A stretch of 34,201 nucleotides of DNA, taken from the IMG/VR virus record IMGVR_UViG_3300007344_000020, positions 1-34,201 of that record. One strand, given 5' to 3'. Shown here piece after piece: positions 4,378-20,086 of the stretch; the first letter of the stretch is position 1, and each line of letters opens with the position of its first letter. Under the pieces are notes generated by a model. That model saw only the letters and a program-made list of their open reading frames with translations, was not told the origin of the DNA and made no database searches. This DNA comes from a virus. A program made the translations under genes and the position numbers.

Positions 4378-5115
4378 GTGTCGATCCATACCGACGGGCC
4401 GGTCGGCGTCATGTTTTTAGGCGATCCGCATATTGACGACGACGGCTGCGACCTCGAGGAGTTAAAGCGCGATATTGACCTGTGCAATAGTACAGACGGG
4501 CTATATGCAGCGCACGTTGGCGATCTCACCAATAATTGGGTAGGGCGGCTCGAGGCTAAATACGGGGCGCAGAGCGCAACCATAGAGGAGGGCGCGCTGC
4601 TATCAAAATGGTTGATTAACGCCGCGCCGTGGCTGTTCCTTGTGATGGGCAACCACGACCTCTGGAATCGCGGCGGGATGCTGGTGCGTGAGCTGTGCGA
4701 CCGGGCCAATGTCTACGTTGACGCACACGGAGTGCGTGTTGCGTTAATGCTGCCGTCGGGCGTGGAGGTGCGCGTCAACTGCCGGCACGACCATAGCGGC
4801 CATTCACAGTGGAACCCCGGCCACGGCCCGCTGAAGGCGCTACTGTTTGGCGACGATCACCTATATGTTGCCGGCCACCGCCACACCTCTGCGTCTGGCC
4901 CAGCGGTGCGCGATCACGAGTCTGGCCGAATCAAGCACCCGCTGCGAGTAGCCGGCTATAAACGCTACGACGAATATGCCCGGAGTTTGGGTCTGCCAGA
5001 CCGCAGGATCTCCGGTGCTGCGCTGCTAGTGATTGACCCACGATTTAGCGACGACGACCCAGCGCATTTGACCGTGTATAACTTAAAAGTTATAGTGATT
5101 ACGCGTATCTACTGA
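4378..5115 (+). CDS. Calcineurin-like metallophosphoesterase
   Basis: 245 residues from GTG 4378. All classic motifs are present in order: GDPHID (metal 1), GDLTNNW (metal bridge), GNHDLWN, a His pair near RHDHSGHSQWNPGHG and AGHRHTSA. The fold is a dinuclear metal phosphatase or nuclease, and phage members are often called DNA repair phosphoesterases. The frame is open back to 4273 and encodes a typical linker (LPSVDELIQAKIERFSRLKR) but has no ATG, GTG or TTG there. Either it is fused to the winged-helix ORF through a frameshift, or it starts at CTG 4291. It ends the + strand block, facing the - strand genes. Confidence 0.85.
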   Translation: MSIHTDGPVGVMFLGDPHIDDDGCDLEELKRDIDLCNSTDGLYAAHVGDLTNNWVGRLEAKYGAQSATIEEGALLSKWLINAAPWLFLVMGNHDLWNRGGMLVRELCDRANVYVDAHGVRVALMLPSGVEVRVNCRHDHSGHSQWNPGHGPLKALLFGDDHLYVAGHRHTSASGPAVRDHESGRIKHPLRVAGYKRYDEYARSLGLPDRRISGAALLVIDPRFSDDDPAHLTVYNLKVIVITRIY

Positions 5116-5284
5116 CTGTCAAGCCCATATAACCGAGCCAAAAAATGTGCTGGAAATATGGGCCTTTAACTTGCGCTTGTTTAATTAGTTATCGTTAATT
5201 AAATATCAGCGTATTTTATATGGCACCAGAACAGTGGGGAAAAACGTATTATCCGTTGTTGTGCAAATAGATAAGCCAGATACA

Positions 5285-7900: not shown

Positions 7901-8082
7901 GCAGATTCAGCTCGCAGCGCGCGCGCGCGCCAATGTTCGCGCTCGGTCTGGCACACCCGCAGTTGGTGTCGAGCCTCGCGCGTCTGATCTTCTGATTTAC
8001 GCAGTGCGCGTTCGAGCGCCATAATCTCGTCGATTTTTGCGGCGATAAATTGTGTTATGGGATCGTCGTTGTTGTCAGACAT
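7897..8082 (-). CDS. Small coiled-coil protein
   Basis: 61 residues, nearly all helical and charged: ITQFIAAKIDEIMALERALR, then EARHQLRVCQTEREHWRARA. It probably dimerises. It overlaps the sigma-factor stop by eight bases and the nuclease start by four, so it belongs to the same transcript. The position behind a sigma factor could fit an accessory or anti-sigma role, which is only a guess. Confidence 0.65.
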   Translation of the reverse strand: MSDNNDDPITQFIAAKIDEIMALERALRKSEDQTREARHQLRVCQTEREHWRARALRAESA

Positions 8083-8794
8083 TGCGCGCGCTCCGACGAA
8101 TACTGTTGCGACAACGCCGCCGACCGTAGTCTATTATTTGCCGCACACGCTCGCGCGTAAGTCCTGCGTCTCTGGCAATATCGGCCTGCGTTTCAGGTTC
8201 TGTGCCTATACCGTAATAGCGTTTCATTATATCGCGGGTGCGCTCGTCCAGCACGTCCAGCACGCGCACGGCGTCGCGCCTGTCGTCCTCTAAAACCATA
8301 GTTTCCAGTGCGCTGGGCGACGGGTCGGGTAGGTCTACCGTTGCCGCAGTAACTGTTTTGTTGCGATTTGCGTGTATCTCCCACAACCTGCATTTTGCCT
8401 CACTGTAGTGGGCCGGCGGCGGCGGTGGGGTTGGTGCGTCATTTTGTTCGATTGCCCTTGCGTAGTCGTTTTGCACCTCCGTCGGCGTTGATATACGTTG
8501 GTCGTAATACAGATCGTAAATTTCTTTGCGAATCCAGTGCACCGCATAGCTGATAAAACGCCACTCGTTGGATAAATCGTAGCGTTGTGCTGCCGTGATT
8601 AATCCCACGGCGCCGGCTTGCAGGCAATTGCTGTAATCGCCCGTGGCGCACATTTCCCGCGCTACTTTGTGAACAAAACGCATATTGCTGCGCACAAGCT
8701 GATCTAACGCGTGCGGGTCGCCGGTGTCTTGGTAGCGCGATAGATATTCGCGCTCCTCGGTGGGGGAGAGAGGGGGAATTGTGTCATAGCGCAT
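8075..8794 (-). CDS. Phage sigma70-family RNA polymerase sigma factor
   Basis: 239 residues. Region 2 is at about 30-110: LVRSNMRFVHKVAREMC (2.1), CLQAGAVGLITAAQRYD (core-binding 2.2), RFISYAVHWIRKEIYDLYYD (2.3-2.4, WIR motif for strand opening). A Pro-rich linker (PTPPPPPAHY) replaces most of region 3. Region 4 at about 185-235 reads LDERTRDIMKRYYGIG, then DIARDAGLTRERVRQII, the -35 binding helix-turn-helix. Group 1-like residues are kept. It should bind host core polymerase and direct it to phage promoters. The start ATG overlaps the previous gene by 11 bases. It is rarer in podoviruses than a single-subunit polymerase. Confidence 0.9.
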   Translation of the reverse strand: MRYDTIPPLSPTEEREYLSRYQDTGDPHALDQLVRSNMRFVHKVAREMCATGDYSNCLQAGAVGLITAAQRYDLSNEWRFISYAVHWIRKEIYDLYYDQRISTPTEVQNDYARAIEQNDAPTPPPPPAHYSEAKCRLWEIHANRNKTVTAATVDLPDPSPSALETMVLEDDRRDAVRVLDVLDERTRDIMKRYYGIGTEPETQADIARDAGLTRERVRQIIDYGRRRCRNSIRRSARNV

Positions 8795-12421: not shown

Positions 12422-12511
12422 ACCGAAGCACCTCCGGGTGTGATGGTGGAGGGTCGGTTCGACAACTTTTGCGAGTGAGGCGAACCGGCCCGTCTTTAAT
12501 TATAATATCCA

Positions 12512-12540
12512 AATATAGTCCTATGGGACTATAACGTCAA
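12512..12540 (-). promoter_or_regulatory. Leftward early promoter
   Basis: Read on the - strand: -35 TTGACG, 17 bases, -10 TATATT. Both boxes match sigma70 at five of six positions. It would transcribe the whole - strand early block. The spacer is occupied by the palindromic operator at 12514-12533, so a bound repressor would block polymerase. Confidence 0.8.
12514..12533. promoter_or_regulatory. Operator O1, palindromic
   Basis: TATAGTCCTATGGGACTATA has perfect 8-base arms around TATG. It sits inside the leftward promoter. Its centre CCTATGGG matches the centre of O2 (CCTATAGG) with one difference, as expected for two sites of one repressor. Confidence 0.75.
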
Positions 12541-12549
12541 GGAGTTTTA

Positions 12550-12578
12550 TTGACCTATAGGCTTTTTTTTTGTATTAT
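12550..12578 (+). promoter_or_regulatory. Rightward promoter of the repressor gene
   Basis: -35 TTGACC, 17 bases including a run of nine T, -10 TATTAT. Transcription should start near 12585, which is the ATG of the repressor, so the message would be leaderless or nearly so. O2 lies in the first half of the spacer. Confidence 0.7.
12554..12561. promoter_or_regulatory. Operator O2 core, palindromic
   Basis: CCTATAGG is a perfect 8-base palindrome sharing the CCTATRGG pattern with O1, 34 bases away. Its position in the spacer of the repressor promoter suggests autoregulation. Confidence 0.6.
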
Positions 12579-12584
12579 ATGATT

Positions 12585-12797
12585 ATGATAAATCAAAAAT
12601 CTTTAATAGCACTAAGCGCGCGTGCCGGCATAAAATCAATGTCTGAGCTGGCCCGGCGCGCTGGACTAACTCCGCAGGCCTTGAACAAGAATTTAAAGGG
12701 CCATAAAAGCGCACGACTTACAACGATCAACCGCTTATGTGCCGCGCTCGACTGCCAGCCCGGTGCGTTCCTCGAATACCGCCCCGACGAAGAATAA
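12585..12797 (+). CDS. Cro/CI-type (XRE) repressor
   Basis: 70 residues from ATG 12585 (MINQKSLIALSARAGIKSMS). ATG 12579 and TTG 12570 lie inside the -10 box, so they are unlikely starts. A Cro/CI helix-turn-helix is clear: SELARRAGLTPQALNKNLKG, then ARLTTINRLCAALDCQPGAF. Length fits a single-domain Cro- or small XRE-type regulator without a cleavage domain. It faces the early block across shared operators and probably represses the leftward promoter and its own. No ribosome-binding site is seen; see the leaderless promoter. Confidence 0.88.
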   Translation: MINQKSLIALSARAGIKSMSELARRAGLTPQALNKNLKGHKSARLTTINRLCAALDCQPGAFLEYRPDEE

Positions 12798-12813
12798 CTG
12801 CACGCCTGTGCAG
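12798..12813 (+). terminator. Hairpin directly after the repressor stop
   Basis: CTGCAC-GCCT-GTGCAG follows the repressor TAA without a gap. It could end the repressor message or protect its 3' end. There is no U-run, so termination is uncertain. Confidence 0.4.
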
Positions 12814-13107
12814 TGCAAATATAGACGCTCTTGTTTATTTTGCAAATGTAATATGCGCCAGTGTTTTTAACCTGACAAGTTTTTTTTTAGTATGATTTTA
12901 AAATTTATGCATAACTCCGTGTTTTTTTCATAGATTGACATAATTTTATTTACGCGTCCTATAAAAAATACTATGTAAATTTGGGTTTCAGGGTAAAAAT
13001 CTCTATATTTATAGTGTTAACCAGTTTTTGTTAAACTGATTAATAAACTCCGGGGTGGGCTAACGCTGACTATCGTCCCGGCGTTAGCCCACACTAAACG
13101 AGGCGCA
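12814..13107 (+). promoter_or_regulatory. AT-rich late-promoter and leader region
   Basis: About 290 bases without a gene, far more AT-rich than the surroundings. Candidate promoters on the + strand: TTGACA (12935-12940) with TATAAA (12960-12965) at a long 19-base spacing; TTGGGT (12981-12986) with TATATT (13004-13009) at 17 bases. An inverted repeat CAGTTT-TTGTT-AAACTG is at 13022-13038. This is the only obvious place from which the endolysin-terminase-structural operon can be transcribed. The phage sigma factor may act here, but I cannot define its target. Confidence 0.55.
13055..13092 (+). promoter_or_regulatory. Strong hairpin in the late leader
   Basis: GTGGGCTAACGC and GCGTTAGCCCAC form a perfect 12-pair stem with a 14-base loop. 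It ends 15 bases before the endolysin ATG, leaving only ACTAAACGAGGCGCA in between. There is no U-run. It may stabilise or cut the late message, or act as an antitermination or attenuation element. Confidence 0.7.
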
Positions 13108-15482: not shown

Positions 15483-17603
15483 GTGAACCGATACGAGCAA
15501 AAGTGGTATAGGGCAGAGGGTGAGATGTTGGACCGGCTCTATCGTGAGCGGTCTAACGAGTGGCAACGACTGTACGACGCCTACGACCTGAAGTTTGACA
15601 AACGTATACGCGACCTACGGGCCGAGGACGTGGTCAAGGTTTCTCGATTTTACCCGGTCGTGCGTCAGATCCTCGGCACTATAGCACACAATTATCCAGT
15701 CCAGCAGTTTTCTGTAGACGACGAAGCCAATCAAGGCGTGGCCGAAATCCTCGAGCGCGCGTCGGCGTCGTGGATGAACCTGACCAGCCTTAAATCCCAT
15801 GTGCACCAAGCGATTTTTGACGCGTTGTTTTGTGGCGTCGGCTGGGTCAGGCTCGATTACAACCCGCCGGGCGATGATATTATCGCGCCATACACAACCA
15901 ACGACGATATGTACGAGGATATTGTCGTTGCTACGCGCGTAGCACCCCATTGCGTGCATGTAGATCCCACCGGCAGTCCGCACCGTCTCGGCGATAAACG
16001 ATACATACGCGAAAAATTCTGGGTTCCGCTCAAGTTTCTGCTGGACGACCCCACCATTCAGAACAAAAAGGCGCTCAGGCCGACGTCGATGGGCAAGGAC
16101 GACGAACTCGGCTATGGCGATCTGATGGGCGCGCGCTACGAGAGCAGCGAGCAGGAGGCGATGCGCGAGGCGATTGCTAACGGCGAGTTTGTGCAACTTG
16201 AGCGTTGGCACAATCGCATTGAGCGCCGGGAAGTTACGTTTGCCGCCGGCGTTGACGCACCGATTAAAGACATCCCGCACCCATATCGCAAAATGCAGTT
16301 CCCGCAGGTGTCGGACACATTTGGTATGCCGGTGTTCAATCTGGACCCGGCAACAGGTGAGCCGACTGAGCCGGTGTTGGATCTGGAAAATGGCGTCGAC
16401 CAACCCGGTTGGTTGGTCGAGGAGGGGTTTCCGTTCGCCGCAATCAAATTCGATTTGAGCGCCGAGACGTTCTACCCCAAGGGGCATCTGAAATACCTCG
16501 AGGATATTCAAAACGCGATCATAGAGCAGACGTCCCGCATTAGCGATATGCTCAAGCGCACAAGCCGCATGGCTGCTGTATCCAACAGCGAGTTGGAGCA
16601 GAACCCCGAGCTGGCCGAGTTGATCCGCACGGGCCGGGACGGTGAGGTTATCGGATTAGAGGATCTGTCGTCGTTCAGGGAGTTGGCGTGGGGCAGCGTG
16701 CCGGGTGACGTATATAACTTTTTTGGTATAGTCATGGGCATGGAGCGCGAGATTGCTGCGCTACAGCCGCCGGCTGCTGGCTCAACGGACAGCGCGACCG
16801 AGGCTGCTGTTGTCGCTGCTGCGGCACAGATTAACGGGCAGTGGATGGAGGCGGCGGTCAACGGGTTCTATGAGCGCATTGTGCGCAACGCGTTCCAGAT
16901 CATGGGCGACCCGCGTTACGTTCCAGAAAATTTTGCTGAGAACGTGGCGCCAGATGGGGAGGACCGTGTGATACGCGCACTACGCACCAGCGATTTCCTA
17001 TGGAACTATCGCATCGAGACAAAGACTGGCAGCACGCAGCCGCTCTACGCACAACTTGAGCGCGACCGTACGATGGCGTTCGTCTCGTTTGCGGCGCAGC
17101 GACCCAATTTTGACCAGATGGAAGTCGATAAGCTGGCAGCCACGGCCAACGGCGTCGCCGATGTTGAGCAAATACTACGCGACGAGAACAACGTCGAGGC
17201 CGAACGCGCAGCCCAGTATGAGAACGACCGCGTCATGGCGGGTCAGCCCATCGAGGTGTTAGCCGAGCAGGATCACCTCGCGCACGCCGGCGTCCACGCT
17301 AAATACCGCGAGCATCAGCAGTATCAACAGTTGCAGATGGCGGCGCAGGCGCGCGATATGATGGGCCAGCCGGCAAACCCCGCTGCTGCACAACAACTGC
17401 AGGCCATTGATCAAGCCATCGCCCAGCACTTACAGCAGCACCAGCAGGCCGCACAACAGGCACAGCAGGGCGAGACGGCATCACCGGTCGCTGCAGGCCG
17501 TGCTGCCGCCGCTGCTACCAACGAGCAGGATCTGATGCGTCAGGTCCAGTCTAACGCACAGCGCACTGTAGACGTTGCACAGGCGCAGGCCCGGAACTAC
17601 TAA
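15483..17603 (+). CDS. Portal protein
   Basis: 706 residues from GTG 15483, the size of P22-type portals. It opens with a helical start (RSNEWQRLYDAYDLKFDKRI) and FYPVVRQILGTIAHNYP, then LFCGVGWVRLDYNPPGDD and VHVDPTGSPHRLGDKRYIRE, typical of podoviral portals. The clip and stem part includes YLEDIQNAIIEQTSRISDML. The C-terminal 130 residues are Gln/Ala-rich coiled coil (a barrel). Twelve copies would form the vertex for packaging and tail attachment. It follows terL by eight bases. Confidence 0.9.
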   Translation: MNRYEQKWYRAEGEMLDRLYRERSNEWQRLYDAYDLKFDKRIRDLRAEDVVKVSRFYPVVRQILGTIAHNYPVQQFSVDDEANQGVAEILERASASWMNLTSLKSHVHQAIFDALFCGVGWVRLDYNPPGDDIIAPYTTNDDMYEDIVVATRVAPHCVHVDPTGSPHRLGDKRYIREKFWVPLKFLLDDPTIQNKKALRPTSMGKDDELGYGDLMGARYESSEQEAMREAIANGEFVQLERWHNRIERREVTFAAGVDAPIKDIPHPYRKMQFPQVSDTFGMPVFNLDPATGEPTEPVLDLENGVDQPGWLVEEGFPFAAIKFDLSAETFYPKGHLKYLEDIQNAIIEQTSRISDMLKRTSRMAAVSNSELEQNPELAELIRTGRDGEVIGLEDLSSFRELAWGSVPGDVYNFFGIVMGMEREIAALQPPAAGSTDSATEAAVVAAAAQINGQWMEAAVNGFYERIVRNAFQIMGDPRYVPENFAENVAPDGEDRVIRALRTSDFLWNYRIETKTGSTQPLYAQLERDRTMAFVSFAAQRPNFDQMEVDKLAATANGVADVEQILRDENNVEAERAAQYENDRVMAGQPIEVLAEQDHLAHAGVHAKYREHQQYQQLQMAAQARDMMGQPANPAAAQQLQAIDQAIAQHLQQHQQAAQQAQQGETASPVAAGRAAAAATNEQDLMRQVQSNAQRTVDVAQAQARNY

Positions 17604-19382
17604 ATGAATCTGACACCGACCTTTTCCTCTAGCGCCATTGGCCGGCCACCGCTCGATCCTGAACAGGAGCGCATTGCGCGTTTGCTGGAGGCGCTGGTCA
17701 CGCAGACGCCGGGCGGTTTGGTGCAGTCTACCGGCGAGACGCTGGGCATGGTGGGCGACGTGCTCGGGTCTATCGGCCAGCCGCAGCGCGCCGAGGCATT
17801 GGGCCAGCAGGTGCGGCGCACGTTGCCAGACATTGTCTCAGCGGTCACAGAGCGGCCTGCAGAGGTTGCGACAGCGTTCGGGCAGGGCATGGAGCAAGAG
17901 GTGTTGGATAAGGGCTTAGGCGCCGTTGCAGGGCTGGAGGATTTGATCCTGCCGGGCAGTAAGGCGGTGGGTATGCTGGGTGCGGCGGCAATGGGGTTGG
18001 GCAAGCTGCCGCCGGCGTCAAAAGCGGTGCAGGACATTGTCGATCTGAGCAAGGCGCGACAGACGCCGGCCATTGTCGGTTCAATGCGGCAAGCGGGAGA
18101 TTTGTTGTCAGACGTTGGAGAGGACGTCAGTTACGCAAAGACTTCCGATTATATGCCGGGTCAAAGGATTAGCACAAGGATTCCAAAAGGCGCGACCATT
18201 ACGGAAGATCCGTTAGTTGAAAATTTGACTATTGACACAGATGTCATGCGGCGTGATGAAAAACTTACTGCAAAAATGGGCAAAGAATTAGGCCGGTATG
18301 TAAACATCACAGACGACGTGGCTAAAAGCGGTGATGCAGATAAAATAATTCAAGCCATGAAAGACCATGATAAGGCTAATTTAGAATTTATTTTTGAACA
18401 GATGCCGCCAGAGATCAGAGATAGGTCAAAATTGTGGTATGACGGCGCAAACAAAATAGCAAACGAGTTTGCGCGTCGGTATAACGTGACAATGGAGGCG
18501 GCGTCTGGTGTATTAGCGGCGTTATCTCCACAAATGGATTGGTTTAAGAATGTAACATTGGCCGAGCGCGTCATAGACACGGTGCAAAATCAATCAACAA
18601 TGCCGTGGACTGCTAAGATGGAAAGATTTTTGGATAAGTTTTATGCGGCGCCGGGATCAAGTTCGCGCAGTGATTGGCGCCAAGATATTGATGCTATTCG
18701 AGGAAAAACATTAGCCGAAATTGACGAACCATTGCAACAAGCGTTGTGGATACGCGCTTTTGATGAAACAATGCGCGACAAAGGGTATAGGGTTATCACG
18801 CCAGAGGGCGATTTTGGCAATGTTGTTAAAACTAAAAAAGGTGAAAACGCCGCAAGTGGGTGGGGTGCATTTGCAGACATTGCAAAAGCGGCCAGTGTGA
18901 TAAAAGACCCGTCTAAAGAAAACATCAGTCGCAGCATGGGAGTTCAGCATAAGGTTAGAAATTTTTACAACAATATAGCTGATCCGCAATCGCCTTATGG
19001 CGACGTCACAATGGATACGCACGCCATAGCCGCAGGTCTTTTGCGACCATTATCCGGTAGTTCATTGGAAGTCAAGCAGAATCTTGGAGGTGGGCCATCG
19101 TCTAATGTTTTGGGCGTACAGGGATCTTACCCGGTTCACGCAGACGCTTATCGAGAGGCCGCTGCTGATATGGGCATACAACCTCGGCAGATGCAGTCTG
19201 TTACATGGGAAGGTATACGCGGATTATATACGCCGGAACAAAAACGCAATAAAGCGTTTGTTTCATCGGTTGATAATCTGTTTCAGCAATACAAAAAAGG
19301 AACTTTGTCGCTGCAAGAATTACAGCAATCTGTGTTGCAGATGGCCGGCGGGATAGATTTGCCAGATTGGGCTAAACCTTAA
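17604..19382 (+). CDS. Two-part virion-associated protein with a foreign-looking C-terminal domain
   Basis: 592 residues. The first ~165 residues share the base composition of the neighbours and resemble the N-termini of other large virion proteins here (PLDPEQERIARLLEALVTQT, hydrophobic GSKAVGMLGAAAMGLGKL). From about base 18100 the DNA is AT-richer and the protein changes: YNVTMEAASGVLAALSPQMD, WIRAFDETMRDKGYRVITPE, HKVRNFYNNIADPQSPYGDV, MDTHAIAAGLLRPLSG and ADAYREAAADMGIQPRQMQS. I recognise this as a conserved phage-associated domain of unknown function (I believe DUF7178; to be checked). The domain may be cargo injected with DNA. It ends overlapping an antisense gene. Confidence 0.75.
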   Translation: MNLTPTFSSSAIGRPPLDPEQERIARLLEALVTQTPGGLVQSTGETLGMVGDVLGSIGQPQRAEALGQQVRRTLPDIVSAVTERPAEVATAFGQGMEQEVLDKGLGAVAGLEDLILPGSKAVGMLGAAAMGLGKLPPASKAVQDIVDLSKARQTPAIVGSMRQAGDLLSDVGEDVSYAKTSDYMPGQRISTRIPKGATITEDPLVENLTIDTDVMRRDEKLTAKMGKELGRYVNITDDVAKSGDADKIIQAMKDHDKANLEFIFEQMPPEIRDRSKLWYDGANKIANEFARRYNVTMEAASGVLAALSPQMDWFKNVTLAERVIDTVQNQSTMPWTAKMERFLDKFYAAPGSSSRSDWRQDIDAIRGKTLAEIDEPLQQALWIRAFDETMRDKGYRVITPEGDFGNVVKTKKGENAASGWGAFADIAKAASVIKDPSKENISRSMGVQHKVRNFYNNIADPQSPYGDVTMDTHAIAAGLLRPLSGSSLEVKQNLGGGPSSNVLGVQGSYPVHADAYREAAADMGIQPRQMQSVTWEGIRGLYTPEQKRNKAFVSSVDNLFQQYKKGTLSLQELQQSVLQMAGGIDLPDWAKP

Positions 19383-19551
19383 TGGTATGCCAAAGATCTT
19401 CCGGCAAGACTTCGTATAGATCAATGTCAGATGGGACGCCATCCGGGTAGCTGTATGCTAAATAAACGTCGGCAGTCAAATCTTTACCGTGACGAATCAT
19501 GTAATCCAGAACGACATCGTCGTGGGCTGATCCTATGGGTGCTTGAGACAT
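19372..19551 (-). CDS. Antisense small gene with its own promoter (moron-like)
   Basis: 59 residues from ATG 19551, chosen because GGAGA lies eight bases upstream; ATG 19575 has no such site. The acidic sequence reads MSQAPIGSAHDDVVLDYMIR, then DLTADVYLAYSYPDGVPSDI and LPEDLW near the end. It resembles small phage and prophage proteins of unknown function. It is the only - strand gene in 20 kb of + strand late genes, is AT-rich and has its own sigma70-like promoter. It overlaps the stop of the preceding gene tail to tail. An immunity, exclusion or antitoxin role is possible but not shown. Confidence 0.65.
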   Translation of the reverse strand: MSQAPIGSAHDDVVLDYMIRHGKDLTADVYLAYSYPDGVPSDIDLYEVLPEDLWHTIKV

Positions 19552-19578
19552 TTTCGATTCTCCGTTAATGGACATATA

Positions 19579-19607
19579 AATATAACAAATTTAGTCCAGA
19601 ATACCAA
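19579..19607 (-). promoter_or_regulatory. Promoter of the antisense gene
   Basis: On the - strand: -35 TTGGTA, exactly 17 bases, -10 TATATT (four and five matches to sigma70). Transcription would start about 20 bases before the ATG at 19551. Such a promoter inside a late operon allows expression independent of the lytic programme. Confidence 0.65.
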
Positions 19608-19612
19608 AAAAT

Positions 19613-20086
19613 ATGCCGACACACAACTACATCTGTGGGCTGGGTCATGTAGAGACGGACGTCTACTACACCATTGCCGGCGGTGGGCCTGACAAGACGC
19701 GCACCTGTCCAGAGTGCAAGCAGCCGGCCACGATCCATTTCGGGTCGTTTGGCGCGTTTAATCGCTTGATGTCAACGCAAGGCCACAATCAGCCGCTGCC
19801 CGATCCGCAGACGGGGCTATACTACGACAACGCGACCGACAAGCGGCGCAAGCTCAAGGCGCTGGGGCTGGAGGAAGGCGATCACAAGAGCCGCGGGCAG
19901 GTCGAAGCCGAGACGTGGGACGCACGCAATCGGCAGGTCGAGCGCCGCGCACAGGGCCAGACTATCGCTGCCGACAGTCTCGACGAGGTTATGAAACAAA
20001 TTGAGTGGGACAGGGTGGATCGCGGCGCATCGGGTGATTTGAGCCGCACCGTAGAGAGTGCAGGATTATTTAGCGACAACGAATAG
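19613..20086 (+). CDS. FmdB-like zinc-ribbon structural-cluster protein
   Basis: 157 residues. The N-terminus is an FmdB-type zinc ribbon (MPTHNYICGLGHVETDVYY with one Cys, then TCPECKQPATIHFGSFGAF). Phage proteins with this start are common just before scaffold and coat genes, with unknown role. The middle has a conserved-looking LPDPQTGLYYDNATDKRRKL, and the tail is acidic and helical. No strong ribosome-binding site precedes ATG 19613, which sits among A-rich bases. Confidence 0.8.
   Translation: MPTHNYICGLGHVETDVYYTIAGGGPDKTRTCPECKQPATIHFGSFGAFNRLMSTQGHNQPLPDPQTGLYYDNATDKRRKLKALGLEEGDHKSRGQVEAETWDARNRQVERRAQGQTIAADSLDEVMKQIEWDRVDRGASGDLSRTVESAGLFSDNE

Follow-up and report, generated by a model that had tools for sequence, protein, structure and literature searches.

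A DUF7178 cargo domain behind a phage portal gene and its small companion gene, a candidate effector and inhibitor pair

Why does the gene directly behind a phage portal gene turn AT-rich halfway along its length, and why does a small gene on the opposite strand close it off? The question is raised by the virus record IMGVR_UViG_3300007344_000020 of IMG/VR, analyzed here over its positions 1 to 34,201 (34,201 nt, hereafter the window). The open reading frame (ORF) at 17604–19382 (+) encodes a 592-residue protein with an N-terminus specific to its clade (residues 1 to ~165) and an AT-richer C-terminal domain of the family DUF7178, and it ends in an overlap with an antisense gene of 59 codons. 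The small gene proved to belong to a family that is a near-obligate companion of DUF7178 in the phages compared. Just short of even confidence, our best explanation is that the pair would constitute a virion-delivered base-excising effector and its cognate inhibitor. The two elements are:

18159–19379, + strand: DUF7178 domain (PF23802), residues 186–592, with the homologous unit at residues 187–590; predicted helix-hairpin-helix glycosylase fold from the AlphaFold2 model and VIA-align.
19372–19551, − strand: 59-residue partner gene, candidate cognate inhibitor; convergent, with an 11-nt overlap with the end of the DUF7178 gene; homologues lie by DUF7178.

A hidden Markov model of the small protein was grown from the window copy, and members were then sought around DUF7178 across distant phages. 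Clustering at 85% identity left a non-redundant set of 126 DUF7178 domains, of which 103 had the small gene at their 3′ edge. It was nested in a longer ORF in 55 cases, overlapping or adjacent in 39, antisense in 6 and otherwise placed in 3, so that the layout of the window is a minority form and nested or overlapping copies in the +1 frame prevail elsewhere. Same-strand partners occupied the +1 frame in 89/97 cases, the core mostly starting 2–11 nt past the domain end. The reverse search, from the small protein alone, returned 193 viral loci, a figure that includes identical contigs from different scans and is not a count of independent phages; DUF7178 was adjacent in 190, a contig edge intervened in 2, and one (L194) was a true orphan. 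Linkage at this level (190/193 and 103/126) is that of toxin–antitoxin and effector–immunity pairs. On a tree of 127 domains the sense or antisense state changed at least four times, with adjacency retained. The small protein had nothing significant in Pfam, PHROGs, NCBIfam or PADLOC, and tblastn with one family member against cultured phages and plasmids gave no match; as far as the libraries searched go, the family is undescribed.

Some individual loci were recorded alongside this survey. The orphan (L194:4004-4183) is nested in a 1413-residue ORF with no recognized DUF7178 or Pfam domain, and is either a relic or the companion of another cargo type. The annotated genome of Rhodobacteraceae phage LS06-2018-MD07 (L283) carries at 4935–5177 a weak, unannotated small-family ORF, nested in the +1 frame behind DUF7178, while Virus Rctr197k (L285) has two successive diverged DUF7178-like copies in one large ORF. 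Carriers also include a prophage in Bradyrhizobium (L091–L094). A clade of six loci (L020, L022, L030, L043, L048, and L062) has no small gene, and its DUF7178 ORF ends in a conserved tail, RSIAxGxxTMFxVPxxxxALGALPS, which we call an alternative C-terminal module.

Since most copies of the small gene sit inside another gene, it had to be asked whether they are genes at all. In 86/103 partners the core was preceded, in its own frame, by a Shine–Dalgarno sequence with a start codon, compared with 9 and 5 partners for the two alternative frames; nested copies taken alone gave 51/55 against 5 and 2. In the nested regions, substitutions gathered at the third codon positions of the small frame. Amino-acid identity over these regions was 0.79 in the small frame and 0.58 in the overlapped large frame, which reads here as a hydrophilic linker. 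The small frame had the higher identity in 220 of 221 pairs, those within one group not being independent; when separate groups were considered, five of six agreed and the sixth had only five substitutions. These comparisons, made at the level of sequence, show the nested copies to be real genes whose own frame is under selection. We also considered a programmed frameshift product, but the antisense copies and the internal Shine–Dalgarno and start sites favor a separate gene.

The window copy has two candidate expression signals:

19559–19563, − strand: Shine–Dalgarno sequence GGAGA of the 59-residue gene, 7 nt before its ATG; such a signal with a start is enriched in the family's own frame.
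19579–19607, − strand: sigma70-like TTGGTA-17-TATATT, an unproven promoter; chance-level frequency, partly conserved.

The start was assigned to the second ATG (19551), nearer than that of the longest ORF, because the homologous ORF in L005 begins exactly there and because GGAGA precedes it at 7 nt; this gives the 59 residues. An earlier note on this DNA, drawn from the letters and their ORFs, had described an antisense gene with a good ribosome-binding site and a promoter of its own with 17-nt spacing, and the first half of that description held. The promoter-like sequence exists, but sites of this kind numbered two against 2.8 expected from shuffles, and its −10-like part recurs in L005 and L006 and not in L008 or L009. 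On account of this chance-level frequency and partial conservation, a separate promoter for the antisense gene was set aside as unproven. The same result lends something to the view that the antisense ORF arose by chance or is non-coding, or that it serves as an antisense RNA regulating the upstream gene. That view is nonetheless highly improbable, as it is contradicted by conservation of the protein over much diverged loci, in both orientations and with ribosome-binding site and start, and by the own-frame selection on the nested copies. Elsewhere in the window, a gene at 8075–8794 (−) resembles an RNA polymerase sigma factor (phrog_351, E 4.4e-33); a phage with such a gene may direct its own late transcription and leave a host-type promoter to the antisense gene.

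How the pair came to lie behind the portal gene was addressed by comparing relatives that share this region. The resident flanks and the junction are:

15483–17603, + strand: portal gene, P22-like, resident left flank (PF16510, E 5.5e-9; phrog_156); 84% identity to relatives that carry different cargo.
17604–18098, + strand: resident N-terminal region (residues 1 to ~165) of the protein that bears the cargo; residues 2–150 at 51–56% identity whatever the cargo.
18053–18100, + strand: junction between the resident N-terminus (..SKAVQDIVDLSK) and the cargo (AGDLLSD..); relatives part at residue ~150–157, with a common AGDLLSD onset and a drop in GC content.
19613–20086, + strand: zinc-ribbon-like gene, resident right flank, in relatives of every cargo type; weak Zn_ribbon_8 match.

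Relatives with this portal gene kept the N-terminus and the zinc-ribbon gene, and the middle differed. The cargo in the slot was a GNAT domain in L264 and L266, ART-PolyVal in L261–L263, a methyltransferase followed by DUF7178 in L009, and another domain followed by DUF7178 in L008. In the last of these, a linker of the form KxxKxAQDIVDxS (KxxKQAQDIVDAS in L008) precedes each of the two successive cargo domains (L008:4950-5650), which suggests that cargo is added or exchanged through recombination at the linker. The antisense small gene was found in 4/4 of the DUF7178 forms compared (window, L006, L008, and L009) and in 0/5 of the relatives with other cargo (L261–L263, L264, and L266); in L261 it was absent from the whole 34,286-bp record. 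Being present or absent together, the domain and the small gene appear to move as one unit. The comparison shows the locus directly behind the portal to be a cargo slot with exchangeable C-terminal domains, and the resident N-terminal region that carries them is probably virion-associated. A Pfam search of residues 1–165 gave no match to a MuF domain at E ≤ 1.

Base composition followed these boundaries. Sliding GC values went from 0.59–0.64 (17250–18250) to 0.44–0.48 (18000–19750) and returned to 0.56–0.59 after 19500, a fall from about 0.60 to about 0.46 between 18,000 and 19,600. The earlier note had read the locus as an inserted module in which a conserved phage domain is fused to a native N-terminus, with an AT-rich shift in mid-gene from about 18,100, and had proposed junctions near 18,100 and 19,600. 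The fusion and the shift are as it described, given the DUF7178 match and an N-terminus common to relatives. The common AGDLLSD onset falls at window residue ~165 (nt ~18,096), a few bases off the left junction proposed, and at the right-hand side all relatives compared retain the resident gene that starts at 19613. Related phages do not always carry the whole 592-residue gene, the contents of the slot being variable, and the antisense gene is conserved. The module reading is thus strongly supported: the junctions are precise, sister phages have different cargo between them, and domain and small gene are present or absent together. The separate promoter has no support beyond chance. Another AT-rich stretch, with a GC content of 0.39–0.43 at 12500–13100, precedes the GC rise into the rightward packaging genes and is likely a regulatory region.

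The nature of the cargo was then sought in its fold. The domain matched PF23802 (DUF7178) with E 6.5e-30 and 104.9 bits, well above the curated family cut-off of 27, and PHROG 3842 with E 6e-29; neither entry lists a function, and no mention of DUF7178 was found in the literature searched. An AlphaFold2 model built with 24 family members reached a predicted local distance difference test score (pLDDT) of 93.4 and a predicted template modeling score of 0.90. Rows 1–13 of its VIA-align comparison were all helix-hairpin-helix (HhH) glycosylases or Qng1, with Z from 9.1 to 5.7, and the next row, an unrelated one, had Z 2.6. The scores were 9.1 for OGG2 (MjaOGG2), 8.3 for Qng1/DUF2419, 7.8 for AGOG, 6.9 for OGG1, and 5.8 for MUTYH, a Z around 9 being middling for a helical model. 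An HhH glycosylase fold is thus predicted for DUF7178 with high confidence. Two codons encode its candidate catalytic residues:

18951–18953, + strand: Lys450 (model residue K265), candidate catalytic lysine, invariant in 127/127; at the start of helix 264–274, after the hairpin.
19014–19016, + strand: Asp471 (model residue D286), candidate catalytic aspartate of a D-T-H motif whose three residues are all invariant (127/127); just before helix 287–294.

In EndoIII the hairpin lysine and the aspartate of V-D-T-H are catalytic. The motif G-x-x-H-K-V-R-N-F ... D-T-H of DUF7178 has, in the secondary structure of the model, the same placement relative to the helices, and no copy in the sample was a dead enzyme by loss of K450 or D471. 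A relative, gp22 of Microbacterium phage Cece, has been deposited as 'glycosylase'.

The high rank of Qng1 leaves room for another function. DUF7178 might be a Qng1-like nucleotide or nucleoside hydrolase, or a repair glycosylase for incoming phage DNA, with the small protein as its regulator. This is fairly unlikely in our view. The Z of the Qng1/DUF2419 chains is nearly that of MjaOGG2, and nucleotide-directed enzymes do occur in polyvalent proteins (Iyer et al., 2017; PMC5512222). A benign repair enzyme, however, would not obviously need a guardian, and the company kept by the domain points to conflict: the slot that it occupies holds ART or GNAT cargo in other phages, and in larger carriers it shares one polypeptide with ART-PolyVal, LPD22, LPD37, LPD38, PcfJ, ASCH, and RadC, several of which are ART-PolyVal and LPD conflict domains.

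An effector with a guardian, one of the two likenesses drawn in the earlier note, would best explain a pairing that is obligate and independent of orientation. Under this explanation, the resident and probably virion-associated N-terminal region would carry an exchangeable C-terminal effector, and DUF7178 would be a base-excising enzyme of HhH-GPD type with a conserved Lys/Asp pair. The protein would be made late, packaged and then injected into the next cell. The acidic 59-residue partner would bind and block it in the producing cell, sparing phage and host DNA until injection. We infer that the enzyme excises bases from DNA, that it is packaged and injected, and that the small protein inhibits it. 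A more sweeping form of the proposal, possible but to be held with some doubt, is that the injected base-excising enzyme is a widespread phage weapon. Its own gene, often a giant polyvalent one, would contain the inhibitor as an overprinted +1-frame gene that travels along with it on either strand, and the two would form a hidden class of effector and immunity pairs built on a DNA glycosylase.

The chief rival assigns the small protein a positive role, as a subunit, substrate-recognition cofactor or packaging chaperone of DUF7178. Obligate adjacency and co-transfer would fit any tight physical partner, and DUF7178 is itself only a putative toxin. Some DUF7178 clades that lack the small gene have a C-terminal tail instead, and this tail could take over a role in chaperoning or targeting. 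Yet translation from an internal start, flips of orientation and loss in whole clades fit an independently regulated guardian at least equally well, and if DUF7178 needed the small protein as a subunit, occasional in-frame fusions of the two would be expected, but none was seen. A positive partner seems rather unlikely.

Several observations weigh against a virion-delivered glycosylase and its inhibitor. Foldseek alone was weak, with a best probability of 0.57 (AGOG) and no PDB match at E ≤ 0.001. The DUF7178 profile had no match among PDB sequences, hhalign against the EndoIII and MutY profiles gave a probability of 0.2 and no sequence-level support, and a Pfam search of the window protein found no PF00730 at E ≤ 1. 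Membership of PF00730 was accordingly rejected; because sequence profiles do not link the families, a fold and a probable chemistry are claimed, and the relation to glycosylases rests on fold and motif. The relative in phage Cece stands alone and outside a virion gene cluster, and therefore injection is not universal. The charge of the small protein, −8 in the window, is mostly but not always negative in the family (core median −5, maximum +2), and its structure model is moderate (pLDDT 71). Finally, about 20/126 DUF7178 domains have no recognized small gene, an upper bound since nested ORFs resembling the small gene lie below threshold in L085 and perhaps in L073 and L088; some carriers therefore manage without it.

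The arrangement recalls known systems and departs from each of them. In the MuF polymorphic toxins of temperate phages, a cargo gene lies behind the portal and a small downstream ORF has been proposed as immunity (Jamet et al., 2017; PMC5576092). The window gene likewise follows the portal directly, varies in its C-terminal domain and has a small ORF as its companion, but it has no detected MuF domain and a different cargo domain, and its partner family is antisense, nested or overlapping rather than simply downstream. Polyvalent proteins of phages and conjugative elements combine several conflict-related domains (Iyer et al., 2017; PMC5512222). The relatives of DUF7178 in giant proteins with ART-PolyVal, LPD22/37/38, PcfJ, and RadC conform to this, whereas the window protein has one recognized domain. 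The main text of that study has neither 'glycosylase' nor 'immunity protein', and a nested partner gene is, as far as we have searched, new to the polyvalent setting.

Compared with the HhH-GPD glycosylases (EndoIII, OGG, and AGOG) and Qng1/DUF2419, DUF7178 has the same predicted fold, a Lys at the helix start after the hairpin and an Asp in D-T-H, but only about 9% identity and no profile-level sequence match. The uracil-DNA glycosylase of the host is inhibited by the DNA mimics Ugi and p56 of phages (PMC3794593). The family of the 59-residue protein recalls them by analogy only, its members being small, usually acidic and proposed to inhibit a glycosylase; their target would be the phage's own cargo, whereas the host enzyme has another fold. 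In the Rpn intragenic antitoxins a separately translated C-terminal domain inhibits the full-length protein (PMC10327210). A small protein is again translated from inside a larger gene, but the nested DUF7178 partner uses the +1 frame, and its family also has members outside the larger gene or on the other strand. The PF23802 and PHROG 3842 descriptions include neither the fold nor the invariant Lys/Asp pair, and no small partner gene is part of them.

An uncharacterized domain with at least 126 non-redundant forms now has a predicted fold and candidate catalytic residues, and an undescribed family of small genes has been uncovered that gene finders overlook because most copies sit inside another gene. 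If the guardian explanation is true, phage polyvalent proteins would have immunity genes built into them, and the same kind of search could be made for nested ORFs that follow other cargo domains.
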